Positions 9,731 through 47,806 of a stretch of 64,000 nt of DNA are shown here, one piece after another. The stretch is taken from assembly GCF_011040385.1 (NCBI RefSeq), contig NZ_JAAIKB010000001.1, forward strand, positions 434,001-498,000. Direction: 5' to 3'. Below the pieces are notes generated by a model. The model saw nothing but the letters and a program-made list of their open reading frames with translations. It did no database searches and had not been told where the DNA came from. The translations under genes were made by a program, and so were the position numbers. The stretch comes from Falsiroseomonas algicola. GTDB lineage: Bacteria; Pseudomonadota; Alphaproteobacteria; Acetobacterales; Acetobacteraceae. The stretch's first letter is position 1. Every line of letters begins with the position of its first letter.

Positions 9731-10765
9731 TTACTCGGCGGCCGCCGCCTCGTCATTCTCCCCGGCCAGCATGGTGCTGGCGAGGCCGTTGGCCTGGTCG
9801 CGGATGCGCTTCTCCACGCTCTCCGCCATGGCCGGGTTGTCCCGCATGAACTGTTTGGCGTTCTCGCGCCCCTGGCCGATGCGCTGGCTGTCGCAGCTGA
9901 ACCAGGCGCCGGACTTCTCCACGATGCCCGCCTTGACGCCGAGGTCGATGAGCTCGCCGACCTTGGAGATGCCTTCGCCATACATGATGTCGAAATCCAC
10001 CTGCCGGAACGGCGGCGCCATCTTGTTCTTCACCACCTTCACGCGGGTCTGGTTGCCCGTCACCGTCTCCCGGTCCTTGATGGAGCCGATGCGCCGGATC
10101 TCCATGCGGATGGAGGCGTAGAACTTCAGCGCGTTGCCGCCCGTCGTCGTCTCCGGATTGCCGAACATCACGCCGATCTTCAGGCGGATCTGGTTCAGGA
10201 AGATCAGCAGGGTGTTGGAGCGGGAGACGCTGCCCGTCAGCTTGCGCAGCGCCTGGGACATCAGGCGGGCATGCAGGCCGACATGGCTGTCGCCCATCTC
10301 GCCTTCCAGCTCCGCCCGCGGCACCAGCGCGGCCACGCTGTCCACCACCAGCACGTCGATGGCGCCCGACCGCACCAGCGTGTCGCAGATCTCCAGCGCC
10401 TGCTCGCCCGCATCCGGCTGGCTGATCAGCAGGTTCTCCACATCCACGCCCAGCTTCTTGGCGTAGCCGGGGTCCAGCGCGTGCTCGGCATCGATGAAGG
10501 CGCAGGTCCCGCCCTTCTTCTGCGCTTCCGCGATCATGTGCAGGGCCAGCGTGGTCTTGCCCGAGCTTTCCGGGCCATAGACCTCGATGATCCGGCCCTT
10601 CGGCACGCCGCCGATGCCCAGCGCCAGGTCAAGGCCGAGCGAACCGGTGGAGATGACCTCCACCTCCTCCGCCGCCGCCTTGTTGCCCATGCGCATGATG
10701 GAGCCCTTGCCGAAGGCCCTCTCGATCTGGCTCAGCGCGGCGTCCAGAGCCTTCGTCTTATCCAT
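9731..10765 (-). CDS. recA: recombinase RecA
   Basis: The 344-residue product starts [20 protein letters not shown] at 10765; the frame extension to 10822 is not family-like. Walker [10 protein letters not shown] lies near residue 70. The segments [43 protein letters not shown] and a C-terminal acidic tail ([11 protein letters not shown]) are all present. RecA forms the nucleoprotein filament for homologous recombination and LexA cleavage. The order cckA–recA–alaS is common in alphaproteobacteria. I did not find a convincing GAAC-N7-GAAC SOS box directly upstream. Confidence 0.98.
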
Positions 10766-10958
10766 GAGGCTCGCTCTCCCGAACTCCCGGGCCCGATTCC
10801 CGGTATCAACCTGGGGGCGCAATCCCCGGCTGGATCCTCACCCGCCGGTCACACCCCGCATCACAGTGGACCAGGAAGCACCGCGACTCCAAGCGCCGCG
10901 CTACCACCTGCCCCTCGACGCGGAATATGGCGCGGAACGGCCATCGCGACAAGAACAT

Positions 10959-12533
<1,575 letters not shown>

Positions 12534-35105: not shown

Positions 35106-35657
35106 ATGCTGCGTCGTCACGCCACCTTCATCGTCATCTCGCTGCTCACCCTCTCCGCCGCCGCGGCGGTGCTGCTGCTGCGCGGGGAGGCTGCCTTCCG
35201 CCACGCGATCGAGGCGACCTGGGGCCTGGTCGTCACCGTCGCACCCTCCATCATCGGCGGCCTGCTGCTCTCCGCCGCGCTGCGGCAACTGGTGCCGCCG
35301 GGCGCGCTGGCGCGATGGATGGGCGCGGAGTCCGGGCTGCGCGGGTTGCTGGTGGCGACCGCCGCCGGCATGGCGATGCCCGGCGGGCCGGTCGCCGCCT
35401 TTCCCGTGGTGCTGGTGCTGGCGCAGGCGGGCGCGGATCGCGGCGCGCTGATCGCCTTCGTGCTCGCCTGGTCGCTGAACGGCTTCCAGCGGATCCTGGT
35501 CTGGGAACTGCCGATCCTCGGTCACGATTTCGCGCTGCTGCGCCTGCTCTGCGGCCTGCCCCTGCCCGTGCTGGCCGGGCTCCTCGCCCGCTGGCTGCCC
35601 ATCCGCTGGACGCCGGAGGATGCACCCGCCTTCAAGCCGGCGCCGGACAAGCCATGA
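35106..35657 (+). CDS. small permease, first of a duplicated pair
   Basis: The 183-residue membrane protein has about five spans. It contains GMAMPGGPVAAFPVVLVLAQ and WELPILGHDF, motifs that recur in its neighbour (LPGGPFVAFPLVLGF; WELPILGPRF). Together the two resemble the halves of UPF0718/ArsP-type permeases (PF03773). The substrate is unknown. The stop overlaps the next start (ATGA). Confidence 0.7.
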   Translation: MLRRHATFIVISLLTLSAAAAVLLLRGEAAFRHAIEATWGLVVTVAPSIIGGLLLSAALRQLVPPGALARWMGAESGLRGLLVATAAGMAMPGGPVAAFPVVLVLAQAGADRGALIAFVLAWSLNGFQRILVWELPILGHDFALLRLLCGLPLPVLAGLLARWLPIRWTPEDAPAFKPAPDKP

Positions 35658-36166
35658 CCATCGGTGTCATCGGCATGTGGGTGCTGGCGCTGGGCGCGCT
35701 CTTCCTCTGCTTGCGCCGCAGCCCGACCGTCGCCCGCCGCGCGGTGAACGAGGCCGGCACCTCGCTGGTCCGCGTCGCGCCGGTGATGATGATGGCGCTG
35801 CCGATGGCGGCGTTCGTCTCCGAACTCATCCCGGCCGGCTGGGCGGAGCGCTGGCTGGGGCCTGACAGCGGCGCGGCCGGCGTGGCGCTGGCGACGCTCG
35901 CGGGCAGCGTGCTGCCGGGCGGGCCCTTCGTCGCCTTCCCGCTCGTGCTCGGCTTTCTCAAATCCGGCGCGGGGCCCGCGCAGATGGTGGCGCTGATCTC
36001 GGGCTGGGCCGTGCTCGGGCTGCACCGGACGCTGTCCTGGGAACTGCCGATCCTCGGACCCCGCTTCATCCTGCTGCGTCTCTCGGCGAGCCTGGTGCTG
36101 CCCTTCCTGGCCGGGCTGGCGGCGGAGGCGCTGCTGCCGTTGTTCCCCGGCGCCGGCTTGCGCTGA
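35654..36166 (+). CDS. small permease, second of a duplicated pair
   Basis: The 170-residue membrane protein has about five spans, with LAGSVLPGGPFVAFPLVLGF and VLGLHRTLSWELPILGPRF paralleling the upstream protein. The two probably form a heterodimeric transporter equivalent to one full-length two-repeat permease. Translation is coupled by the 4-base overlap. It ends 40 bases before the RibD-type gene. Confidence 0.7.
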   Translation: MTIGVIGMWVLALGALFLCLRRSPTVARRAVNEAGTSLVRVAPVMMMALPMAAFVSELIPAGWAERWLGPDSGAAGVALATLAGSVLPGGPFVAFPLVLGFLKSGAGPAQMVALISGWAVLGLHRTLSWELPILGPRFILLRLSASLVLPFLAGLAAEALLPLFPGAGLR

Positions 36167-36206: not shown

Positions 36207-37004
36207 GTGACGGCGATGCACCAGCACACGACAATGCCGGAGGAAGACGCCTGGGCCGCGCTGCTGCGCGCGCGCGACGGCGGCGCCGTGCCGGATGGCG
36301 CGCTGGGCGATCTCTTCGCCCCGGTTCTCGCCACGCCGATTGCCGAGGATGGCTGCATCGTGATCGGCCGGCTGGCGCAGACGCTGGATGGGCGCATCGC
36401 CTGCGCGAATGGCCACAGCCAGTGGATCGGCGGCCCGGGCGACATCCTGCACACCCATCGCCTGCGCGCGCTGTGCAACGTGGTGATGGTGGGCGCCCGC
36501 ACCGTGCATCACGACGATCCGCGCCTGACGACGCGCGAAGCCACGGGCCCCAACCCCGTGCGCGTGGTGCTCGACCCCGCGCGCCGCCTGCCCGACACGC
36601 ATCGCGTCTTCACCGATGGCGTGGCGCCGACGCTGCTCATCACCGCCACCGATGGTCCCGACCGGCACGGCCAGGCGGAGGTGCTGCGCGCTGGCGAAGG
36701 CGAGATCGACCTTCCTGCGCTGCTGCGCGCCCTTGCGGCGCGCGGCCTGCGTCGCATCTTCGTCGAGGGCGGCGGCCGCACCGTCTCCGCCTTCCTCGCC
36801 GCCGGCTGCCTCGACCGCCTGCATGTGACGCTCGCCCCCGTGATCCTCGGCTCCGGCATTCCCGCCTTCACGCTGCCGGAGGCCGTGCGCATGGACCAGG
36901 GTCTGCGCTTCCGCTGGGCGGTGCATCCGATCGGCGAGGACCTGCTGCTCGACATCCCGCTCGGGCGCCGGCGCCCGGGCAGTTGCGAAGGCGACGCGCG
37001 ATGA
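36207..37004 (+). CDS. RibD C-terminal (dihydrofolate reductase-fold) reductase
   Basis: The 265-residue product has GCIVIGRLAQTLDGRIAC, GDILHTHRLRALCNVVMVGA and TVHHDDPRLTTR, then LLRALAARGLRRIFVEGGGR and LAPVILGSGIPAF. This is the RibD_C pattern of NADPH-dependent reductases acting on pyrimidine or pterin sugar chains. The deaminase domain of RibD is absent; about 45 residues of unrelated sequence precede. It starts a tight gene run and overlaps the next start by 4 bases, suggesting a reduction step in a pterin-type pathway rather than riboflavin synthesis. Confidence 0.85.
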   Translation: MTAMHQHTTMPEEDAWAALLRARDGGAVPDGALGDLFAPVLATPIAEDGCIVIGRLAQTLDGRIACANGHSQWIGGPGDILHTHRLRALCNVVMVGARTVHHDDPRLTTREATGPNPVRVVLDPARRLPDTHRVFTDGVAPTLLITATDGPDRHGQAEVLRAGEGEIDLPALLRALAARGLRRIFVEGGGRTVSAFLAAGCLDRLHVTLAPVILGSGIPAFTLPEAVRMDQGLRFRWAVHPIGEDLLLDIPLGRRRPGSCEGDAR

Positions 37005-37984
37005 AGGCCAATGCCCTGTGGACCATCGCACCGCAGCGCGCCGAGTTGCGGGAGCAGGACCTGGCGGTGCCCGGCCCCGACCAGGTGCTGGTGGACACCA
37101 TTGCGACGGGAATCTCCCGCGGCACGGAGCGCCTGGTCTTCGAAGGCCGCGTGCCCGAAAGCCAGTGGCCCGCCATGCGCGCACCGCTGCAATACGGCGA
37201 GTTCCCCTTCCCGCTCTCCTACGGCTACAGCGCGGTCGGCCGCGTCCGTGCGGGGGCGGAGGCGCTGCTCGGCCGCCGCATCTTCTGCCTGCACCCGCAT
37301 CACGACGCCTTCGTGGCGCCGGCATCGATGTGCATTCCGGTGCCGGATGCCGTGCCGGACCATCGCGCGGTGCTGGCAGCCAATATGGAAACCGCCGTCA
37401 ACGTCCTGTGGGATGCGCGGCCGCTGGTCGGCGAGCGCGCGCTGGTCGTGGGCGCCGGCGTGGTCGGTCTCCTCGTCACCTTCCTGCTGGCCCGCATGCC
37501 GGGGGTCGAGCTCGTGGTCTGCGACATCGATGAAGGGCGCCGCTCCATTGCCGAGAGCTTCGGCGCCCGCTTCGTCGCGCCCGCCGATGCGCCCGGCGAT
37601 CGCGACCTCGTCATCCACGCCTCCGCCAGCCCCGCGGGGCTTCGCCTCGCGCTGTCCTGCTGCGGCTTCGAAGGCCGCGTCGTCGAAGCGTCCTGGTTCG
37701 GCGACAAGGAGGTTGCGCTGCCGCTCGGCGAAGCCTTCCACGCGAAGCGGCTGTCCCTCGTCTCTACCCAGGTCGGCCAGGTGGCACCCGCCATGCGCGG
37801 CCGCCGCGCCTATGCGGATCGCCTGGCGCTGGCGCTGTCGCTGCTGGATGATGCGCGGCTCGATGCACTGCTCGGCCCGGCCATCCCGTTCAAGGATCTG
37901 CCGCAATCCCTGGGCACTGTGCTGTCGCCGCCGCCTGGCGATCCGCAGCCGCTCTGCCCCTTCGTCACCTATATATATAAGTGA
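37001..37984 (+). CDS. BchC-like medium-chain dehydrogenase
   Basis: The 327-residue MDR protein contains TGISRGTERLVFEGRVPES, MRAPLQYGEFPFPLSYGYSA, FCLHPHHDAFVAP and AVLAANMETAVNVLWDARPL. These segments closely parallel BchC, which oxidises the 2-hydroxyethyl (later 3-) side chain in bacteriochlorophyll synthesis. The Rossmann motif is VVGAGVVGLLV. The usual Cys ligands of zinc alcohol dehydrogenases are missing. No bch gene is nearby, so it probably oxidises or reduces a side-chain alcohol of another product of this operon. Confidence 0.85.
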   Translation: MKANALWTIAPQRAELREQDLAVPGPDQVLVDTIATGISRGTERLVFEGRVPESQWPAMRAPLQYGEFPFPLSYGYSAVGRVRAGAEALLGRRIFCLHPHHDAFVAPASMCIPVPDAVPDHRAVLAANMETAVNVLWDARPLVGERALVVGAGVVGLLVTFLLARMPGVELVVCDIDEGRRSIAESFGARFVAPADAPGDRDLVIHASASPAGLRLALSCCGFEGRVVEASWFGDKEVALPLGEAFHAKRLSLVSTQVGQVAPAMRGRRAYADRLALALSLLDDARLDALLGPAIPFKDLPQSLGTVLSPPPGDPQPLCPFVTYIYK

Positions 37985-37997
37985 GAGATCGCGCCCG

Positions 37998-38396
37998 ATG
38001 TTCAGCCTGACCGTCGTCGACCACATCATGATCGCGCACAGCTTCCGCGGCGATGCCTTCGGCCCCGCGCAGCGCCTGCACGGCGCGACCTTCATCGTGG
38101 AGGCGGAGTTCCGCGCGCCGAAGCTGGACGACCTGCACCTGCTGGTCGATATCGGCCTCGCCAAGGATCACCTGCGCGCCATCCTGGCGCCGATGGACTA
38201 CCGCAACCTGGATGCGGAGCCCGTTTTCGCCGGCAAGAACACCACCACCGAATATCTCTGCCTGCACATCCACGGCCTGCTCGCCCAGGCCTGCCGCGAC
38301 GGCGTGCTGGGCGATGGTGGCAAGGCGGTGACGGGCCTCAAGATCCTGCTGCGGGAAAGCCACATCGCCTGGGCGGCCTTCGAGGGGCCGGTCTGA
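37998..38396 (+). CDS. divergent 6-pyruvoyl/6-carboxy-tetrahydropterin synthase homologue
   Basis: The 132-residue product shows the PTPS fold: IAHSFRG (first zinc His 14), RLHGATFIVEAEF (His 28), LAPMDYRNLD, GKNTTTEYLCLHI and a C-terminal LRESHIAWAAFEG. Compared with the canonical Cys-x3-His-Gly-His motif, the Cys is Ala 24 and the second His is Ala 30. The Asp-His pair in the next motif is Asp-Tyr. The usual QueD or PTPS activity is therefore doubtful. It follows the BchC-like gene by 13 bases and precedes the glycosyltransferase by 10. Confidence 0.85.
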   Translation: MFSLTVVDHIMIAHSFRGDAFGPAQRLHGATFIVEAEFRAPKLDDLHLLVDIGLAKDHLRAILAPMDYRNLDAEPVFAGKNTTTEYLCLHIHGLLAQACRDGVLGDGGKAVTGLKILLRESHIAWAAFEGPV

Positions 38397-38406
38397 GGCC
38401 ACGACG

Positions 38407-39447
38407 ATGCGGATCGCCTTCCTCGTCCCGGGGCCGATCACCGCCATCTCCGGCGGCTACGGCTATGATCGCCGGCTGGTCGCGGGCATGCGGGCGCTGG
38501 GCCATGAGGTCACAGTGCTGGAACTGTCGGGCCAGCACCCGCTGCCAGACGATGCCGCGCGCGACAGCGCGCGCGCCGCGCTGGCGCAGGTGCCGGCCGG
38601 CACGCACATCGTCATCGACGGCCTTGGCCTTCCGTCCTTCGAGCCGCTGCTGGATGAACTCGAACGCCGCGGCGCGGTCGGCCTGATCCATCACCCGACG
38701 GCCTTGGAGCACGGCAACCCCGGCCCGGTGCGCGACGCGCTGCGGGCGGCGGAGCAGGCGATCTTCCCGCACCTCGCGCGCCTGGTCGCGACCAGCCCGC
38801 TGACCGCGCGGCGGCTCGCGCCCGAATTCGGCGCCGATCCCGCGCGCATCGGCGTGGTGGAACCGGGCACCGATCCGGCGCCGCGCAGCGCCGGCTCCGG
38901 TGGGCCGGGCTGCGCCATAACGGCCGTCGGCACGCTGATCCCGCGCAAGGGACATGACGTGCTGCTGCGCGCCCTCGGCACGCTGCCGGACCTGGACTGG
39001 ACGCTGACCATCGTCGGTTCACCGCGCGACAAGGTGCATGCCGACGGGCTGGTCGCGCTGGCCGAGGAGCTTGGCATCAAGCAACGCGTGACCTTCGCGG
39101 GCGAGGTCGCCGAGATGGCCCCGCTCTGGGCGAAGACGGACCTCTTCGCGCTGGCGACGCATTGGGAAGGCTATGGCATGGCCGCGGCGGAAGCACTCGC
39201 GCGCGGCATCCCGGTGGCCATCACGGCCGGCGGCGCGATCGCGGAGGTCGTGCCGACCGCGGCCGGCGTCATCTCCCCGCCTGGCGACGTCGTCTCCCTC
39301 GGCAAGGCGATGCGCCGCGCCATCTTCGACACCGATCTGCGCGCGGAGATGGCGGAGGTGGCGTGGGAGGCCGGCCAGCGCCTGCCGCGCTGGGAGGACC
39401 GCGCGAGCGCCTTCGTGCAGGAGATCGAGAAGGCAGCGGACCGATGA
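38407..39447 (+). CDS. GT4-family glycosyltransferase
   Basis: The 346-residue enzyme has an N-terminal Rossmann lobe with MRIAFLVPGPITAISGGYGY and a C-terminal GT4 lobe with AVGTLIPRKGHDVLLRAL (donor loop) and HWEGYGMAAAEALARGIPVA (E-x7-E donor-binding motif). It is GT-B fold, probably retaining. Context suggests glycosylation of a small-molecule, possibly pterin-like, acceptor rather than polysaccharide. Its stop overlaps the next ATG by 4 bases. Confidence 0.9.
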   Translation: MRIAFLVPGPITAISGGYGYDRRLVAGMRALGHEVTVLELSGQHPLPDDAARDSARAALAQVPAGTHIVIDGLGLPSFEPLLDELERRGAVGLIHHPTALEHGNPGPVRDALRAAEQAIFPHLARLVATSPLTARRLAPEFGADPARIGVVEPGTDPAPRSAGSGGPGCAITAVGTLIPRKGHDVLLRALGTLPDLDWTLTIVGSPRDKVHADGLVALAEELGIKQRVTFAGEVAEMAPLWAKTDLFALATHWEGYGMAAAEALARGIPVAITAGGAIAEVVPTAAGVISPPGDVVSLGKAMRRAIFDTDLRAEMAEVAWEAGQRLPRWEDRASAFVQEIEKAADR

Positions 39448-40322
39448 CGGAAACCTTCGACGGCGATTGGCTCGACCTGCGGGAGCCCCATGACGCGGCC
39501 GCGCGCAACGTGGCGCTGGCGCAGCAACTCGCCGCCGCGCTGCCCGCCCGTCCCCGCATCCTCGACCTCGGCGCCGGCACCGGTTCGCTGCTGCGCTGGA
39601 TGGGCCACTTCATCGGCCGCGCCCAGGCCTGGACGCTGGTGGATGCCGACCCCGAACTCGTCGGCCGCGCCTTCGAGACCATCGCGGGGCGTGCGCTGGA
39701 GGCGGAGTGGACCGTCACCTGGCCCGGCCGCAAGACGCTGCTGGTCCATTCGCCCCACGGCGCCTGGCGCGTGGAAGCGCTGGTCGCCGATCTGCGGGAA
39801 GCGCCGGACAACCTCCCGCTCGACCAGGTGGATGCCGTGGTGAACACCGCGCTCTGCGACCTGGTGTCGGAGGAATGGGTGCAGCGCATCGCCGAAGGCT
39901 GCGCGGAGTATCGCCTGCCCTTCTACGCCGCGCTGAACGTGACGGGGCGGGAGCGCTTCATGCCTCCCCACCCCGCCGATGCGCTGGTGGCGCGCGGCTT
40001 CGCCCGCGACCAGCTGCGGGACAAGGGCTTCGGCGGCGTGGCGCTCGGCGCCCGCGCGCCCTCCGTGATCGCGGAGGCCTTCGCGGCGCATGGCTACAGC
40101 GTGCATCGCGCGCCGAGCGACTGGGCGATCAGCCGTCGCGATGCCGCCATGGCCGCCGAGATCGCCGATGGCCATGGCCGTGCCGCCATGGCGCATGAAC
40201 GCCGCGATCGCCGCCGCCTGCTGGACTGGATGGTGGACCGCCGTGCCCAGGCCGGGCTGCTGCGGCTCTCCGTTCGCGTCGGCCATACCGACATCCTTTG
40301 CCTGCCGCCTGAGAAGGGTTGA
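39444..40322 (+). CDS. class I SAM-dependent methyltransferase
   Basis: The 292-residue protein has RILDLGAGTGSLLRWMG (SAM motif I), WTLVDADPELVGRAFE, VDAVVNTALCDLVSEEW and PFYAALNVTGRERFMPPHPA. The substrate is not evident. It overlaps the glycosyltransferase gene by 4 bases and ends 4 bases before the kinase start, so its substrate is probably the operon's product. Confidence 0.88.
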   Translation: MTETFDGDWLDLREPHDAAARNVALAQQLAAALPARPRILDLGAGTGSLLRWMGHFIGRAQAWTLVDADPELVGRAFETIAGRALEAEWTVTWPGRKTLLVHSPHGAWRVEALVADLREAPDNLPLDQVDAVVNTALCDLVSEEWVQRIAEGCAEYRLPFYAALNVTGRERFMPPHPADALVARGFARDQLRDKGFGGVALGARAPSVIAEAFAAHGYSVHRAPSDWAISRRDAAMAAEIADGHGRAAMAHERRDRRRLLDWMVDRRAQAGLLRLSVRVGHTDILCLPPEKG

Positions 40323-40326
40323 CCCC

Positions 40327-41586
40327 ATGCCGCTCCTGCTCGGCTGCATCGCCGATGACTTCACCGGCGCCACCGATCTCGCCTCCATGCTCGTGCGCAA
40401 CGGGATGGCGACGGTGCAGGTCATCGGCGTTCCGACCGGCCCGCTGCCGGAGGCCGATGCGATCGTCGTGGCGCTGAAGTCCCGCACCGCGCCGGTGCGC
40501 GACGCGGTGGCGGAAAGCGTGGCGGCGGCGGATGCGCTGCTGGCCGCCGGCGCGCAGCAGCTCTTCTTCAAATACTGTTCTACCTTCGACAGCACGGATG
40601 CGGGCAATATCGGGCCCGTTGCGGATGCGCTGCTGAAACGCCTCGGCGCCGGCTTCGCCCTCGCCTGCCCCGCCTTCCCGGCCAACAACCGCAGCATCTA
40701 CCAGGGCCACCTCTTCGTCGGCGGGACGCTGCTGAACGAGAGCGGGATGGAGAACCACCCGCTGACGCCGATGAAGGACGCGAACCTGGTGCGCGTGCTG
40801 TCGCGCCAGACGGAGGGCGCCGTCGGTCTCGTGCCCTTCGCCGTGGTGGAGCAGGGCGCGACCTCCATCCGCCAGGCGATGACGCGCCTGGCCGAGGGCG
40901 GCCGCCGCTACGCGATCGTGGATGCCGTGAGCGACAGCCACCTGATGGCGATCGGCGAGGCGGCGGCGAGCCATCCGCTGATCACCGGCGGATCCGGCGT
41001 GGCGATGGGGCTGCCGGCGAATTTCCGCGCCAAGGGGCTGCTGCCTTCGCGCGACGATGCCGCGACCCTGCCGGAAGCAGGCGGCCTCTGCGCCGTCGTC
41101 GCCGGCAGCTGCTCCCGCGCCACGCTCGGCCAGATCGGCTTCGCCCGGGATCATGCGCCGGTGCTGGAACTGGATGTGCTCGGCACGCCGGACGCCGCCG
41201 TGCTGGCGGCGCAGGCGCTGGCCTGGGCGGAAGGCAAGCTCGACGCGCAGCGCCCCATCGTCATCGCCGCCTCCGCGCCGCCGGAGCAGGTCGCGGCCCT
41301 GCAGGCGAAGCTGGGCCGCGATGCCGCCGGCGCGCTGGTGGAGCATGCGCTGTCGAGCGTCGCCGAAGGGCTGGTGGCGCGTGGCGTGAAGCGCCTGGTG
41401 GTGGCAGGCGGAGAGACATCCGGCGCCGTCGTCTCCCGCCTTGGCGTCACAACGCTCCGCATCGGGCATGAGATCGACCCGGGCGTACCCTGGACCTTCG
41501 CGGAGCCCACGGGGATCCATCTGGCGCTGAAGTCCGGCAATTTCGGCGCGCGCGACTTCTTCCTGAAGGCCTTCGATCATGTCTGA
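40327..41586 (+). CDS. otnK: four-carbon acid sugar kinase (OtnK-like)
   Basis: The 419-residue protein has the N-terminal MPLLLGCIADDFTGATDLAS, KYCSTFDSTDAGNIGPVADA and CPAFPANNRSIYQGHLFVGG. The C-terminal nucleotide-binding domain contains LVVAGGETSGAVVSRLG. This is the DUF1537 family; OtnK phosphorylates 3-oxo-tetronates from threonate or erythronate catabolism. It overlaps the aldolase gene by 8 bases, the classic otnK–otnC pair, yet is joined without a gap to the methyltransferase operon. Dehydrogenase and isomerase partners (DenD/LtnD, OtnI) are not visible. Confidence 0.9.
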   Translation: MPLLLGCIADDFTGATDLASMLVRNGMATVQVIGVPTGPLPEADAIVVALKSRTAPVRDAVAESVAAADALLAAGAQQLFFKYCSTFDSTDAGNIGPVADALLKRLGAGFALACPAFPANNRSIYQGHLFVGGTLLNESGMENHPLTPMKDANLVRVLSRQTEGAVGLVPFAVVEQGATSIRQAMTRLAEGGRRYAIVDAVSDSHLMAIGEAAASHPLITGGSGVAMGLPANFRAKGLLPSRDDAATLPEAGGLCAVVAGSCSRATLGQIGFARDHAPVLELDVLGTPDAAVLAAQALAWAEGKLDAQRPIVIAASAPPEQVAALQAKLGRDAAGALVEHALSSVAEGLVARGVKRLVVAGGETSGAVVSRLGVTTLRIGHEIDPGVPWTFAEPTGIHLALKSGNFGARDFFLKAFDHV

Positions 41587-42214
41587 GGGCGCGCTGCGGC
41601 TTCAGCTGGCGGAGTTGGCGAAGTCGCTGTTCGACCGTGGCTACTCCGTCGGCACCGCGGGCAACATCAGCGTGCGCCTGCCCGATGGCTACCTGATGAC
41701 GCCGACCAATTCCTCGCTCGGACGGCTCGATCCCGCGCGCATCAGTCGGCTGGATGCCGAATGGCGGCATGTCGGCGGCGACAAGCCGTCCAAGGAGGTC
41801 TTCCTGCATCGCGCGGTGCTCACCGCTCGGCCGGAGGCGGGCGCAGTGGTTCACCTGCACTCCACCTACGCCACCGCCATTTCCTGCATCGCGCCGGAGG
41901 GCGGCGATGCGGAGGTCCCGCCGCTGACGCCCTACTTCGTCATGCGCATCGGCCGCCGCCTGCCCTGCGTGCCCTACTACCGCCCGGGCGACGCAGCGAT
42001 GGAGGACGACGTCCACCACGCCGCGCTGGCCGCCAAGGCGCTGCTCCTGGCCAATCACGGCCCGGTCGTCAGCGGTGCCACCCTCGTCGATGCCGTGAAT
42101 GCGGCGGAAGAGCTGGAGGAGGCTGCGCGCCTGGCGCTGCTGCTGCGCGACGTACCCGGTGTGCGGCGCCTCACACCCGCACAGGTGGACAACCTGCTGG
42201 CGACCTTTGGCTAG
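41579..42214 (+). CDS. otnC: 3-oxo-tetronate 4-phosphate decarboxylase (class II aldolase family)
   Basis: The 211-residue protein has AGNISVRLPDGYLMTPTNSS, HLHSTYATAISC (metal-binding His pair) and LLANHGPVVSGATLVDAVNA (a further His). The likely catalytic acid is E in KPSKEVFLHRAV. It is an AraD/fuculose aldolase-fold enzyme matching OtnC, which decarboxylates the OtnK product to dihydroxyacetone phosphate. Confidence 0.9.
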   Translation: MSEGALRLQLAELAKSLFDRGYSVGTAGNISVRLPDGYLMTPTNSSLGRLDPARISRLDAEWRHVGGDKPSKEVFLHRAVLTARPEAGAVVHLHSTYATAISCIAPEGGDAEVPPLTPYFVMRIGRRLPCVPYYRPGDAAMEDDVHHAALAAKALLLANHGPVVSGATLVDAVNAAEELEEAARLALLLRDVPGVRRLTPAQVDNLLATFG

Positions 42215-42760: not shown

Positions 42761-43351
42761 TTAGGAAGCGGATTCCGGCGTCGCGGCGGGCGCAGGAGCC
42801 GCAGCGGCGGCGGCGGCGGCCTTCTTCGCGGCGCGGGTGGCGGCGGCCTTCTTCGCGGCTTCGCTGCGCGCGGACGGCGCTGCGGCGGCAGCCTTCTTCG
42901 GGGCGGCCTTCTTGGGCGCAGCCGCCTTCTTCGGCGCAGCGGCCTTCTTGGCAGCCGGCTTCTTGGCGGCGGCCTTCTTCGGCGTCGCGGCCTTCTTGGC
43001 AGCCGGCTTCTTGGCGGCGGCCTTCTTCGGCGCGGCCTTCTTGGCGGCCGGCTTCTTGGCGGCGGCCTTCTTCGGCGCGGCCTTCTTCGCGGCAGCCTTC
43101 TTCGGCGCGGCCTTCTTCGGCGCAGCCTTCTTGGCGGCGGGCTTCTTCGCGGCAGCGGCCTTCTTCGGCGCGGCCTTCTTGGCAGCCGGCTTCTTGGCGG
43201 CAGCGGCCTTCTTCGGCGCGGCCTTCTTCGCGGCCGGCTTCTTGGCGGCGGGCTTCTTCGCCGTCTTCTTCGCAGTCGCCATCGCCATCGCCTGGGCGCG
43301 CGGCGCGGCGGCCTCGACCTCGGTCTCGGTGGTCACGGTGGTGTCGGTCAT
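42761..43351 (-). CDS. histone H1-like Ala/Lys/Pro-rich DNA-binding protein
   Basis: The 196-residue product starts MTDTTVTTETEVEAAAPRAQ at 43351, then consists of repeated AAKKPAAKK and AAPKKAA blocks (about residues 28-155). A short EAAKKAAATRAAKKAAAA segment and a Pro/Ala tail end it. Such lysine-rich repeats bind and condense DNA like the C-terminal tail of eukaryotic H1. The antisense frame is the Ala/Phe-rich shadow. Repeat number probably varies among strains. The in-frame upstream extension is compositionally different and was not used. Confidence 0.9.
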   Translation of the reverse strand: MTDTTVTTETEVEAAAPRAQAMAMATAKKTAKKPAAKKPAAKKAAPKKAAAAKKPAAKKAAPKKAAAAKKPAAKKAAPKKAAPKKAAAKKAAPKKAAAKKPAAKKAAPKKAAAKKPAAKKAATPKKAAAKKPAAKKAAAPKKAAAPKKAAPKKAAAAAPSARSEAAKKAAATRAAKKAAAAAAAAPAPAATPESAS

Positions 43352-44021
43352 GTGGTCAGGATCTCCGATCTTTTGTCCGGTGAGTGGTGTTCCGGTGGTG
43401 ATGGGCCCGCGCGGCTTGCGCCGCCTCGTACCCGCGAAAGCCGTCTGGACCGTGCGTCTTCCCAGTGGCGCGGATCCCGTATCGCGCCGTCCCGGTGCAG
43501 CCGCCGTCCCGCTTCCGCCGGCGCCGGTCAGGGATGCGATGCCTGCGGCGTCACGCCGCGTCGCGCCCTTCCCGGCTTCTCTCCCGCCAGCGCCCGGCGC
43601 CGCGATGGCGCTGGTTGCCCGCGCCGCGATGGCGCTGTTTGGCGGTGCGGAACATGGCGTGCATTGCACGATCCCCTGCTCCACGAGCCTGCGGTCCATG
43701 GACCGATCCTTCCTGCTGCGCGACACCGCCCGTGTGTTCTGCGTGACGTCGTCGCCGCGAGGATGAAGCCGCCTTGGCGCCGACGTTCACGCGAATCGCG
43801 TCAAGCGATGCGTGCATCGTCACGCTATCCGTGTGTGCAACCTGCCTGTCAAACGAAAACGCACGAACGACGTGCAGCGATGTGCATCGCGTGTGCAGCG
43901 ACGTGCGAGAGAGGCATGCGAAGGCAGTGACGCATGCCTGTTCCGCGATGCGCGGAAGCGGTCGTCGCGCCGCTTCCGCCACCGGGATGACGCCGCGCGA
44001 CGATGCGCGCGGCGTTGCCGA
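43352..44021. other. 670-base gap with palindromes and GTGCA repeats
   Basis: I find no convincing gene. Frames crossing it are Arg/Ala-rich without family motifs. The part next to 43351 should hold the histone-like promoter. A 17-bp direct repeat (43597-43613 and 43621-43637, 24-bp period) lies in the middle. From 43806 to 43939 there is a cluster of GTGCA-containing repeats and palindromes, listed separately. Confidence 0.6.
43806..43939. repeat. GTGCA repeat and palindrome cluster
   Basis: Contains CGATGC-GT-GCATCG (43806-43819) and GCGATG-TG-CATCGC (43877-43890). Two copies of GTGCAGCGAYGTGC lie at 43872 and 43893, exactly 21 bases apart. A perfect 9-bp inverted repeat AGGCATGCG/CGCATGCCT with a 10-base loop is at 43912-43939. 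The layout looks like multiple protein-binding sites on one DNA face. Confidence 0.6.
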
Positions 44022-45155
44022 TCAGCGCGCCGAGATCGGCGGCACCGGGCGCTGCTCCACACCGGTATAGTGCGACAGCGGCCGGATCAGCCGGTTGTCC
44101 GTCGCCTGCTCGAACACATGCGCGGCCCAGCCGGTGATGCGGGAGCAGACGAAGATCGGCGTGAACATCGGGATGTCGAAGCCCATGAGGTAGTAGGCAG
44201 GGCCCGCCGGGAAATCGAGGTTCGGGTGGATCTTCTTCACCCGCATCATCTTCGCCGCCAGCACACGGCTGGTCTCCATCCAGCGACGGTCGCCGACCAC
44301 CTCCGCCATCTTCTCGGCGTATTTGGTCATGGTCGGTACACGGCTGTCGCCATTCTTGTAGACGCGGTGGCCGAAGCCCATGACCAGCGCCTTGTGGTCG
44401 AACTTGCCCTCCAGCCAGTCCTCCGCCGCCTCCGGGCTGCCAATCTCGGTCAGCATGTGCATCACCGCCTCATTGGCGCCGCCATGCAGCGGGCCCTTCA
44501 GCGCGGCGATGCCGGCCGCGATGGCGCCATGGATGTCGGCCCCGGTGGAGGTCACCGTCCGCGCCGTGAAGGTGGAGGCGTTGAAGGTGTGCTCCGCGTA
44601 GAGGATCATCGAGACGTCGAAGGACTTGATGACCTCGGGCTGCGGCACCTTGCCGAAGACCAGGTGGAAGAAGTTCTCGCAGAACGGGAGCGACGCATCG
44701 GGCTCGATCGGCTCCAGCCCCTTCGACAGGCGGTTGGTCGCCGCCACCGCCGTCGGCAGCTTGGCCAGCAGCCGCATTGCCTTCCGCCGCTGCGCGGCGT
44801 CCGACACATCCGCCGTCTCCGGATCCTCCGTCCCCATGAAGGAGACGGCGGTGCGGATCGCGTCCATCGGATGCGCGTCCTTCGGGATCTCCCGCAGCAC
44901 CCGCAGCAGGGCGGGCGACAGCGCCCGGTTCGCCCGCTCCTCCGCCTGGAAGGCGGCCAGTTGCTGCGCATTCGGCAGCTCGCCGTGCCAGAGCAGGTAG
45001 GCGACCTCCTCGAAGTTGCTCTCCTCGCAGAGGTCCTGCACGGCATAGCCGCGATAGGTCAGGCTGTTCGTCTCCGGCATCACCTTGGAGACGCTGGACA
45101 CGTCGGCATAGACGCCGACCAGGCCCTTGTAGAGCGTCGGTGTGGCTTCACTCAT
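44022..45155 (-). CDS. prpC: 2-methylcitrate synthase/citrate synthase
   Basis: The 377-residue product has LYKGLVGVYADVSSVSKVMP, LTYRGYAVQDLCEESNFEEV and LLWHGELPNAQQL. Catalytic regions are ILYAEHTFNASTFTARTVTS, GPLHGGANEAVMHML, VMGFGHRVYKNGDSRVP and the C-terminal RPLSHYTG. It condenses propionyl-CoA with oxaloacetate in the methylcitrate cycle. It lies 72 bases after prpD. PrpB and a propionyl-CoA ligase are not in the window. Confidence 0.93.
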   Translation of the reverse strand: MSEATPTLYKGLVGVYADVSSVSKVMPETNSLTYRGYAVQDLCEESNFEEVAYLLWHGELPNAQQLAAFQAEERANRALSPALLRVLREIPKDAHPMDAIRTAVSFMGTEDPETADVSDAAQRRKAMRLLAKLPTAVAATNRLSKGLEPIEPDASLPFCENFFHLVFGKVPQPEVIKSFDVSMILYAEHTFNASTFTARTVTSTGADIHGAIAAGIAALKGPLHGGANEAVMHMLTEIGSPEAAEDWLEGKFDHKALVMGFGHRVYKNGDSRVPTMTKYAEKMAEVVGDRRWMETSRVLAAKMMRVKKIHPNLDFPAGPAYYLMGFDIPMFTPIFVCSRITGWAAHVFEQATDNRLIRPLSHYTGVEQRPVPPISAR

Positions 45156-45227
45156 GGCTTCACTCCCCTTGCCGCAGGGCGGGCGGAACGCGCGGTTCCG
45201 CCCGCGGATGCGGCTAGTCGTTAACGA

Positions 45228-46769
45228 TCAGAAGATACCGGGCTTCGCATCCAGCAGCGTGCCCGCCGGCAGCACGACGTTCAGTGCCGAGAGTTCGCCG
45301 GCGCCGAGGCTCGCCAGGTCCTGCGCGGCCTCCAGGAAGCGGTTCTGCTCCCGCGTCGTGATGATGCCCTCGGTCAGGATGCGGAACTTGTTGATGTACT
45401 GGTCCCGCGCGAAGGGGCGGGCGCCGTTCGGGTGGGCATTCGCCACGCCGAGCTCATCCACCAGCTTCGACCCGTCCTTGAACAGGATCTCGACCCGGCC
45501 GCCGAAGGACAGCTCATTCGGATCGCGGGAGTGGTACTTGCGCGTCCACTCCGGGTCCTCCGTCGTCTCGATCTTGTGCCAGAGGCGGACGGTATCCGCC
45601 CGGCCGGCGCGCTTCGGCGCGTAGCTGTCCACATGGTGCCAGCGCCCGTCCTGCAGGGCGACGGCGAAGATGTACATGATGGAATGGTCGAGCGTCTCGC
45701 GGCTCGCCTTCGGGTCCATCTTCTGCGGGTCGTTGGCGCCGGTGCCGATCACGTAGTGGGTGTGATGGCTGGTATGGATGATGATCTTCTCGATCGCCTC
45801 CATGTCCTGGATCTGCTCCCGCATCCGGAAGGCCAGGTCGATCAGCGCCTGGGACTGGTACTCCGCGCTGTGCTCCTTGGTGTAGCTGTCCAGGATGGCG
45901 CGCTTGGGCTCGCCGGCCTCGGGCAGCGGGACCTCGTAGTAGGTGGGGTCATAGACGGTCTTGCGGCCCTGGCTGTCCGCCTGCGTGCGGCCGGACAGGA
46001 CCCAGGCGATGACGCTGTCCTCGCCTTCGTAGATCGGGCTCGGCGCGCCCTCCCCGCGCATGCAGCGGTCCACCGCCTCGATCGCCAGCTTGCCGGCATG
46101 GGCGGGGGCATAGGCCTTCCAGGAGGAGATCTCTCCCTTCCGCGACTGCCGGAAGCTCACGGAGGTGTGGAGCGCCTGCTGAATCGATTGAAAGACCACC
46201 TCCTGCTTCAGGCCGAGCATGGTGCCGATGCCGGCGGCCGCGGCCGGGCAGAGATGGGCGATGTGGTCCACCTTGTGCTCATGCAGGCAGATCGCGCGCA
46301 CCAGGTTGATGTGCAGCTCATAGGCCGTCGCCAGGCCCCGCATCAGGTCCTTGCCCGACTTCCCCATCGCCTGCGCGACCGCCAGCAGCGGGGGAATGTT
46401 GTCGCCCGGGTGGGAGTAGTCGGCCGCCAGGAAGGTGTCGTGCATGTCGAGCTCACGCACCGCCGTGCCATTCGCCCAGGCCGCCCATTCCGGGCTGACC
46501 GTGGTGCCGGACTTCACGCCGAACACCGTCGCGCCGCCCGCCTTCTTCGCATGGCCCAGCGCCATGCCGCGGGCCGAGACGACCGGGCGGCGGTTGATGG
46601 CGGCTATGGCGACGGAGGCATTGTCGATCACGCGGTTGATGATCATCGCCTGCACGTCCTTCGGCACGGCGACCTTGTCCACGGCGACGCCGGCCATCTT
46701 CCAGGCCAGTTGGTCCTCGCGCTTCAGCAGCGCCTTGGAGGGATGGACCTTCACCGGATGCAGCTTCAT
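45228..46769 (-). CDS. prpD: MmgE/PrpD family 2-methylcitrate dehydratase
   Basis: The 513-residue product contains [40 protein letters not shown] and [37 protein letters not shown] and [20 protein letters not shown] are also PrpD-like, the length is about that of PrpD, and prpC follows. It dehydrates 2-methylcitrate to 2-methyl-cis-aconitate. It is divergent from a LysR gene across 119 bases. Confidence 0.9.
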
Positions 46770-46827
46770 CAGCGTTCCCCATTGCTTGCGGTAGTGACGC
46801 GCCGTTTTGGACCCGCTTCGCGTGATC

Positions 46828-46878
46828 GTCCATTCCGATTGGCGTGGGCGCGCGATAGTCTTTCCGTATCGGATGGAC
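46828..46878. promoter_or_regulatory. candidate LysR operator between prpD and the LysR gene
   Basis: GTCCATTCCGAT (46828-46839) and ATCGGATGGAC (46868-46878) are inverted copies with one base missing, spaced to span the divergent promoters. Their position suits autoregulation plus prpD control. Confidence 0.4.
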
Positions 46879-46888
46879 GGCAGCGCGC

Positions 46889-47806
46889 ATGGATTTCCGC
46901 CTCGTCAGGCGCCTCGGCCATTTCCTCGCGGTGGCGGAGGAAGGGCATTTCGGTCGCGCTGCCGCGCGGCTCGGCATCTCGCAGCCGCCGCTGACGGCGC
47001 AGATCCAGGCGCTGGAGAAGGAACTCGGCGTGCGGCTGCTGGAGCGCAGCGGCAAGGGCGCGCGCCCGACGCGGGAAGGCGAGGCCCTGCTGCCGCTCGC
47101 GCGCCGCATGGCGGAGGATGCGGGGCAGATCGAGGCGCTGGCGCGCGACCTCCGCGCCGGCCGCAGCGCGCCGGTGGCGCTGGCCTGCGTGACCTCCGCG
47201 CTGTTCGACTACCTGCCGCCCCTCGTCCGCGGGCTGCAGGCCGCGCGCCCCGCCTCCGCCATCGCGGTGCGGGAGATGGACACGGCCGATGCGGTGGAGG
47301 CGCTGCGTCGCGGCGAGGTGGACCTGGCGCTGCTACGCCTCGACCGGGACCGCCATCCGATCCGCCTGCGCCCGCTCGGCCAGGACGTGCTGGCGGCGGC
47401 GCTGCCGGAGGAGCATGCGTTGGCCCGGGACGACGGACCCCTGCCCCTCGCCGCGCTGGCGGATGAGCCGATGCTGGTCCTGCCCCGCGGCATCAGCCCC
47501 GCCTATTCGGACGCCATGGTCGCCGCCTGCCACGCCGCCGGCTTCACGCCGCGGGTGACGCGGGAGGTGGGGTCCGCCATGGCGCAGCTGGGCTTCGTGG
47601 CGGCGGGGCTCGGCGTGGCGCTGGTCAGCGCCGGCATGGCACGGCTGCGGCCGCCAGGGGTGGCGTTCCGGGCACTGGAAGGGCCGATTCACGCGGTCGG
47701 CGTGGCGCTGGCGTGGAATGCGGAGCGGGAAAATGAGGCGACGCGGTTGGCGCTGGAACTCGCGGAAAGGTTGTTTTTCGTGGCTCGAACAAACATGGAC
47801 AACTAG
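46889..47806 (+). CDS. LysR-family transcriptional regulator
   Basis: The 305-residue protein has the N-terminal winged helix ([60 protein letters not shown]) and a periplasmic-binding-like effector domain ([20 protein letters not shown]). Its divergence from prpD–prpC suggests it controls propionate catabolism with a methylcitrate-type ligand, although prp operons are more often controlled by PrpR or GntR proteins. Confidence 0.92.

Follow-up and report, generated by a model that had tools for sequence, protein, structure and literature searches.

A conserved SCO6650-type gene cluster in Falsiroseomonas algicola as a candidate pathway to a glycosylated, methylated pterin-like compound

Introduction

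Pterin glycosides occur in cyanobacteria (PMC13259868), and CtPGT of Chlorobium is a GT4-like glycosyltransferase that acts on a reduced pterin (PMC5683033). BrbF, which was first annotated as a creatininase, deformylates a GTP-derived formyl pyrimidine in Sinorhizobium and Brucella (Yurgel et al., PMC9478397), and the bacterial GTP cyclohydrolase III that would match it is called yet to be discovered (PMC9478397). Here, we compare these systems with a run of seven genes in the alphaproteobacterium Falsiroseomonas algicola (Acetobacteraceae). The genes lie within a stretch of 64,000 nucleotides (contig NZ_JAAIKB010000001.1, positions 434,001 to 498,000), hereafter the window, of a 6.56 Mb genome. 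An earlier note on this DNA had described them as a tightly packed operon that may make a reduced, glycosylated and methylated pterin or pterin-like molecule. The genes are as follows:

36207..37004, + strand, RibD_C pyrimidine reductase paralogue without a deaminase domain (Pfam RibD_C 155.2 bits, cut-off 24.1)
37001..37984, + strand, BchC-like medium-chain dehydrogenase (bchC 62.7 bits, cut-off 291.25; ADH_zinc_N 29.7 bits, cut-off 31.8)
37998..38396, + strand, SCO6650-type PTPS homologue whose zinc and catalytic positions are changed (PF01242 67.3 bits, cut-off 22.4; PDB 3d7j, E 3e-46)
38407..39447, + strand, GT4 glycosyltransferase (Glycos_transf_1 89 bits, cut-off 26.4; sequence relatives in the PDB are GT4-type enzymes)
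39444..40322, + strand, class I S-adenosylmethionine (SAM) methyltransferase (Methyltransf_25 28.9 bits, cut-off 27; AlphaFold model with a Rossmann SAM fold, pLDDT 96.7)
40327..41586, + strand, OtnK-type 3-oxo-tetronate kinase (NCBIfam NF043035 603.9 bits, equivalog cut-off 350)
41579..42214, + strand, OtnC-type 3-oxo-tetronate 4-phosphate decarboxylase (NCBIfam NF043034 274.1 bits, equivalog cut-off 250)

The coordinates confirm the packing, with successive spacings of -4, 13, 10, -4, 4, and -8 bases from RibD_C to OtnC. We lean towards reading the first five genes as the central genes of a biosynthetic pathway that is uncharacterised but widely conserved, the "SCO6650-type cluster," and, in the same judgement, towards a pathway that would make a glycosylated, methylated pterin-like compound with OtnK and OtnC as a separate module. 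The product is likely a glycosylated, methylated pterin or 2-amino-4-oxopyrimidine.

Conservation of the five-gene core

The PTPS-homologue family occurs in 45 of the 385 genomes searched in the window's class (E ≤ 2.4e-45; next match 1e-7), in 12 of 274 genomes of the class of a Granulosicoccus genome (E ≤ 1.6e-38; next match 9.6e-17), and in 9 of 296 genomes of the phylum of an Actinoplanes genome (E ≤ 5.3e-34, one being a fragment; next match 1.4e-22). Each count includes the genome at its centre, which was known beforehand to carry the gene. These searches, with hits listed up to E 0.001, set the SCO6650-type family sharply apart from other PTPS/QueD-type genes. Neighbouring genes were counted by tblastn (E 1e-4) within 7 kb of the PTPS homologue, and several loci end at contig edges. 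Loci were taken from 40 of the 44 further carriers in the window's class, 11 of the 12 Granulosicoccus-class carriers, and 8 of the 9 in the Actinoplanes phylum, with L077, L078, and L079 added; L078 belongs to the twelfth Granulosicoccus-class genome.

In the window, the BchC-like dehydrogenase, the GT4 glycosyltransferase, and the methyltransferase stand around a PTPS homologue of the 3d7j type and on its strand, the arrangement by which the SCO6650-type cluster is recognized. All 51 Acetobacteraceae-like loci have these three partners, and 48 have RibD_C (the three misses fall at contig edges). Among the 40 alphaproteobacterial loci outside the family, the dehydrogenase is present in 39, GT4 in 38, the methyltransferase in 35, and RibD_C in 31, while GTP cyclohydrolase II (RibA) is present in 16 and a creatininase in 8. 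The 14 gammaproteobacterial loci gave 13, 14, 13, and 11 for the same four core genes, with RibA and creatininase in 2 each. The dehydrogenase and GT4 are present at all 8 actinobacterial loci, the methyltransferase and RibA at 7, creatininase at 5, and RibD_C, the least constant of the five core genes, at 2. The earlier note had expected the five genes to be neighbours in related genomes. They neighbour each other well beyond Alphaproteobacteria (the dehydrogenase at 39/40, 13/14, and 8/8 loci), so the proposal has come through the genomic half of the test that the note had set.

A compact version is found in three genomes of 1.4–1.6 Mb (loci L156, L158, and L159 of G195, G293, and G371), where creatininase, dehydrogenase, PTPS homologue, GT4, methyltransferase, RibD_C, and RibA adjoin. 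Small genomes of about 1.0–1.6 Mb that retain the cluster comprise these three loci together with L213 and L214, and this retention argues for an important function. Since the cluster has stayed together in lineages that range from actinobacteria to proteobacteria with small genomes, a marginal function is unlikely. The cluster does not accompany every homologue: at L160, GT4, methyltransferase, and RibD_C were not detected.

Other features of these neighbourhoods vary. On a Streptomyces plasmid (L089), the PTPS homologue stands next to cupin and MEKHLA genes, and no other gene of the cluster lies within 10 kb. Cytochrome b561 is a recurrent neighbour of the cluster, at 9/40 alphaproteobacterial loci (L136, L161, L162, and others), where a membrane redox step is possible. 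By eye, a cupin-like gene is inserted between the methyltransferase and OtnK at L034 and L060, and a PIN-domain-like gene between the PTPS homologue and GT4 at L059.

The PTPS homologue

According to its Pfam score, the third gene encodes a member of the PTPS superfamily. Its best solved relative, over 129 residues, is SCO6650 of Streptomyces coelicolor (PDB 3d7j), and the next PDB chain is 3i2b, a 6-pyruvoyl tetrahydrobiopterin synthase, at E 0.032. The HGH motif reads HGA in 20/20 family rows. Eight other PTPS/QueD-type proteins were compared, of which 8 keep HGH, 7 the Asp-His pair, and 5 the Cys before HGH; the corresponding residues in the protein of the window are HGA, Asp-Tyr, and Ala, respectively. 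We take the AxH and HGH histidines to be zinc ligands and the Cys and His positions to be catalytic. On these counts (8/8 against 5/8), the family is marked most firmly by the loss of the zinc ligand and least firmly by that of the Cys. E120 and the T84-E85 pair (Thr-Glu motif), on the other hand, are invariant in 20/20 family rows, and a Glu at the place of E120 is also found in the other PTPS/QueD-type members compared. Presumably, this Glu near the C terminus and the Thr-Glu motif bind a pterin or 2-amino-4-oxo ring. The structure paper on SCO6650 is said to describe the same residue losses, no zinc, and no PTPS activity.

The earlier note had taken the PTPS fold as a clue to the pathway. 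The superfamily assignment stands, but the PTPS reaction cannot be carried over with it. Most annotated plasmid records label the homologue 6-carboxytetrahydropterin synthase; because the zinc-binding His and the catalytic Cys and His positions are lost, QueD or PTPS activity is not to be assumed from that label. Several genomes, for instance the small G859 and G972, hold an SCO6650-type homologue plus a weaker PTPS/QueD-type match.

The reductase, dehydrogenase, and transferases

The RibD_C protein matches no other Pfam family. Its nearest PDB entries are 6p8c, a 2,5-diamino-6-ribosylaminopyrimidinone 5'-phosphate reductase (E 4e-30), and 2azn (E 9e-23), with RibD of Bacillus subtilis less close (2b3z, E 1e-19). 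Among the NCBIfam models for archaeal-type diaminopyrimidine reductase (ArfC) or RibD reductase, it scores below the cut-offs of TIGR01508 (114.6 vs. 186.45), TIGR00326 (115.1 vs. 156.35), and, narrowly, TIGR00227 (149.4 vs. 150.15). The dehydrogenase has bchC (TIGR01202) as its nearest NCBIfam model, at a score far below the cut-off for membership, and by sequence it is BchC-like in a loose sense only; it carries conserved SRGTE, PHQ, and META-type motifs. For the methyltransferase model, the 50 Foldseek rows listed were mostly SAM methyltransferases at 8–20% identity, with relatives including cyclopropane synthases, and the PDB rows listed held no close relative.

Altered GTP cyclohydrolase II and creatininase genes

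In some other lineages, the cluster is joined by GTP cyclohydrolase II and creatininase genes. The 66 cluster-bearing genomes hold 134 GTP cyclohydrolase II places, of which 90 were tried, the weaker being left out, and 89 aligned; 17 aligned places that had lost site motifs were set aside, which left 72 for classification. A creatininase was counted as linked when it lay within 6.5 kb of RibA, and of a split creatininase match (G311) only one half was used. Unaltered RibA, defined by HSEC and a Tyr, accounts for 45/72. The 27 altered proteins have Met at the Tyr position (5), Ala (12), Ser (4), Gln (3), or Cys (2) at the Glu of HSEC, or HAEC (1). A creatininase-family gene is linked to 13/27 altered and 0/45 unaltered RibA genes (Fisher 2.8e-7, uncorrected for shared ancestry); the 13 cases form about six groups, namely five genomes whose RibA is similar to that of the Streptomyces locus L083, families f141, f30, and f113, two gamma-class genomes, and G715. 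The linked loci are:

Met type: L195, L196, L197, L198, L200
HSxC type: L135, L156, L158, L159, L161, L218, L278, L280

At L280 (G940:C4) and L278 (G715:C188), the RibA and creatininase starts are 1025 and 635 bases apart, and these pairs apparently lie on a contig other than that of the PTPS homologue. RibA lies near the PTPS homologue in 16/27 altered and 13/45 unaltered cases. Where a Met-type RibA accompanies the cluster (five genomes), each genome also has two unaltered RibA genes.

The pairing of altered RibA with creatininase genes suggests an enzyme that stops at the formyl intermediate, and the combination agrees with a formyl-pyrimidine branch of the BrbF kind. Across nine creatininases from such clusters, five positions (E, H, D, H, and E) do not vary, and we take these to be metal ligands. 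A Met-type RibA of S. coelicolor, SCO6655, reportedly stops at the formyl intermediate. In a metabolic modelling study of that organism, the expression of SCO6655, listed there as GTP cyclohydrolase II, correlated negatively with predicted riboflavin flux (r -0.61), though that of SCO2687 did so too (r -0.52) (PMC2853524). The genome-wide number of creatininases is a poor marker of the branch, since by eye a creatininase is also present in many genomes whose RibA genes are all unaltered; in these it is possibly a BrbF for riboflavin. Separately, 16/66 cluster genomes (e.g., G129, G162, G265, G872, and G983) had no intact zinc-cysteine GTP cyclohydrolase II among the places fetched.

In the window, the cluster lacks both GTP cyclohydrolase II and creatininase, which are optional in the clusters of other lineages. 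The genome encodes an unaltered RibA on another contig, and on contig C77 a strong RibD_C place of the RibD type and a GTP cyclohydrolase II-domain place are ~1.3 kb apart. There are six creatininase-family genes, lying 64 kb upstream and on other contigs, and one of the six is 42–45% identical to those of three alphaproteobacterial clusters (L123, L134, and L161). With RibA, RibD-type, and creatininase genes all present in the genome, the common pyrimidine intermediate should be available.

Proposed pathway

The pathway that we propose would start with GTP cyclohydrolase II, which would open GTP and yield a 2-amino-4-oxopyrimidine ribosyl phosphate. The enzyme for this step would be the housekeeping RibA in the window genome, and a dedicated RibA variant with a creatininase-type formamidase in some other lineages. 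The RibD_C paralogue would then reduce the ribosyl to a ribityl chain; because the window protein has no deaminase domain, the 2-amino group should stay. The BchC-like dehydrogenase could oxidize a hydroxyl of the side chain. The PTPS-fold protein is proposed to bind the 2-amino-4-oxo ring through its conserved Glu and to aid ring closure or carbon-carbon chemistry without the usual zinc mechanism. Finally, GT4 would attach a sugar and the methyltransferase would methylate the molecule, yielding the glycosylated, methylated pterin-like compound. The product suggested in the earlier note gains some support, from the retained Glu and Thr-Glu, from the GTP cyclohydrolase II and creatininase in some clusters, and from the precedent of a GT4-like enzyme; the PTPS fold that the note cited does not by itself imply a PTPS reaction.

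Several observations weigh against this pathway. The PTPS homologue may bind its ligand without catalysing a reaction. RibD_C is missing within 7 kb at 9/40 alphaproteobacterial loci (2 of them at contig edges) and 6/8 actinobacterial loci, and is therefore not always clustered. In 49 sequences, a site column of RibD_C holds H, Q, R, S, or L, where B. subtilis RibD has Lys and both archaeal-type reductases in the alignment have Asn; RibD_C may therefore act on a different substrate. The window itself gave no match (tblastn E 1e-4) to the cluster RibA, creatininase, phosphatidyltransferase, LPG_synthase_TM, MdoH, or cytochrome b561 queries. In some genomes (e.g., G414, G198, and G296), a RibA with HSSC, HSAC, or HSQC is the only GTP cyclohydrolase II classified, and among 12 RibA loci of genomes free of the PTPS homologue (L171–L182), L176 is HSAC, while the other 11 have HSEC and Tyr. 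Since HSxC occurs in sole RibA proteins and in the cluster-free L176, it is by itself no proof of a formyl product or of a link to the cluster. The cluster-free control weakens HSxC as a marker but does not affect the linkage to creatininase genes, the basis of the branch reading.

Alternative readings

The alternative that survives best, although we consider it unlikely, is a ribityl-pyrimidine, lumazine, or deazaflavin-like glycoside, in which the RibD_C product would be decorated without pterin ring closure and the PTPS homologue would serve as a carrier or binder. RibD_C and GTP cyclohydrolase II are enzymes of the riboflavin type, and the loss of the usual catalytic residues from the PTPS homologue is in keeping with such a role. 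However, the window RibD_C lacks the deaminase domain, which should leave the 2-amino group in place, and the homologue keeps Glu120 and Thr-Glu, the residues we take to bind a 2-amino-4-oxo ring in ordinary PTPS. More doubtful still is a broader form of the pterin proposal, in which the product would be a new pterin-derived glycoconjugate, anchored to the membrane in some lineages, made through a new ring or chain chemistry at a zinc-free PTPS fold, and started in several by a bacterial GTP cyclohydrolase III consisting of an altered RibA with a creatininase formamidase as partner.

A membrane-bound product as such, with a pterin-like head joined to a phospholipid by a CDP-alcohol phosphatidyltransferase and moved by a flippase-like LPG_synthase_TM protein, is improbable. 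The phosphatidyltransferase does lie near the cluster in 12/40 alphaproteobacterial, 7/8 actinobacterial, and 10/14 gammaproteobacterial loci, as does LPG_synthase_TM in 0/40, 6/8, and 7/14, respectively, and one Streptomyces example of each was recognized well above threshold (CDP-OH_P_transf 49.9 bits, cut-off 22; LPG_synthase_TM 103.1, cut-off 33.4). Neither gene was found, however, in the window, in the 51 Acetobacteraceae-like loci, or in the compact L156, L158, and L159, and 9/40 alphaproteobacterial loci have an MdoH-type glucosyltransferase.

About equally improbable is a part for OtnK and OtnC in the pathway, either in processing a four-carbon side chain or in supplying a C3/C4 unit. 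The earlier note had left open whether the pair processes such a side chain or forms a separate module read from the same promoter, and had proposed comparing clusters with and without it. OtnK lies within 7 kb at 34/51 Acetobacteraceae-like loci (OtnC at 31) and at 9/10 loci of the family in other genera. It follows the cluster even where tblastn found no methyltransferase (L305, L306, and L307) or no OtnC (L309, L312, and L314), which would suit a role in the pathway. It was not found, though, at 17/51 Acetobacteraceae-like loci (8 of these cut by contig edges), nor at any of the 62 loci outside the family (0/40 alphaproteobacterial, 0/14 gammaproteobacterial, and 0/8 actinobacterial). OtnK also occurs in genomes of the family without the PTPS homologue (e.g., G020, G021, G024, G026, and G031). 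At L309, the kinase in the cluster position (9905–11041 of the reverse complement) has lost the DDFTGA motif, and the same genome has stronger OtnK matches. By eye, synteny at L309 reaches beyond the operon, with citrate synthase and a histone-like gene following as in the window. The two genes were accordingly rejected as core genes, being near the cluster only in loci of the Acetobacteraceae type. On this distribution, we read them as a separate sugar-acid module that probably shares the transcript in part of the Acetobacteraceae, a lineage add-on and not pathway chemistry; of the two possibilities in the earlier note, the separate module is favoured and the side-chain role disfavoured.

An ordinary queuosine, folate, or biopterin cluster, to which the 6-carboxytetrahydropterin synthase label on the plasmid records would point, is very improbable and was set aside, as the homologue falls below the cut-offs for QueD (36.1 vs. 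89.25 bits) and 6PTHBS (26.5 vs. 125.5 bits), has HGA for HGH, has lost the Cys and His, and coexists in several genomes with a weaker PTPS/QueD-type match.

Upstream permeases and neighbouring genes

Two further genes precede RibD_C on the same strand:

35106..35657, + strand, half-size permease A, ArsP_1-like (31.5 bits, below the 32.3 cut-off), with which the transcript probably begins
35654..36166, + strand, half-size permease B, ArsP_1-like (25.7 bits, under the cut-off of 32.3)

The two overlap by 4 bases, are ~40% identical to each other, and end 40 bases upstream of RibD_C. Same-strand half-permeases lie within 7 kb of the cluster at 23/51 Acetobacteraceae-like loci and 1/10 loci of the family in other genera, and also near the cluster at L157, outside the family; at L311, the tblastn matches of the second permease and RibD_C are only 2 bases apart. 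These genes probably belong to the operon, and since they adjoin RibD_C and accompany the cluster in relatives, the transcript may well comprise nine genes. The half-permeases possibly export or import the product or substrate of the cluster. Rfam at gathering thresholds and pattern scans for promoters and terminators gave no matches (0, 0, and 0). Downstream, a gene for a lysine-/alanine-rich, histone H1-like (HC2) repeat protein lies on the minus strand (42761–43726), with similar-looking genes after the cluster at L309 and L312. Genes for citrate synthase, an MmgE/PrpD-family protein, and a LysR regulator stand side by side at 44022–47806.

Comparison with known systems

Within the open-licence literature, no paper was found on the cluster or naming its product. 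Pterin glycoside synthesis is of a known kind, and the route here would be new. If the product is a pterin glycoside, the cluster would be a second route to such compounds besides those of cyanobacteria and green sulfur bacteria, the 6-carboxytetrahydropterin synthase label on these homologues would become questionable, and concrete genes would be at hand for testing bacterial GTP cyclohydrolase III. If the glycoconjugate branch exists, the altered RibA genes would be candidates for, or models of, the GTP cyclohydrolase III that would match BrbF.

The PTPS homologue of the window belongs to the same subfamily as SCO6650, deposited as "Uncharacterized protein SCO6650" (PDB 3d7j). A comparable arrangement is that of the Streptomyces plasmid locus L083, where dehydrogenase, PTPS homologue, GT4, and methyltransferase stand in a row that continues with LPG_synthase_TM, creatininase, and GTP cyclohydrolase II. 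The operon in the window differs from the Streptomyces cluster in that RibD_C precedes and OtnK/OtnC follow the shared genes, and the window gave no match to creatininase, GTP cyclohydrolase, or phosphatidyltransferase. Of the AFRPP formamidases BrbF and ArfB, BrbF is likened to the cluster creatininases by annotation; it serves riboflavin synthesis (PMC9478397), whereas the cluster creatininases sit with altered RibA genes. CtPGT, likened by description, acts on tetrahydrobiopterin (PMC5683033), while the window glycosyltransferase has partners of the GTP cyclohydrolase II/RibD type and a PTPS homologue without the usual catalytic residues. The window OtnK and OtnC resemble the known pair in that both exceed their NCBIfam equivalog cut-offs; unlike that pair, they sit behind a pterin-type cluster.

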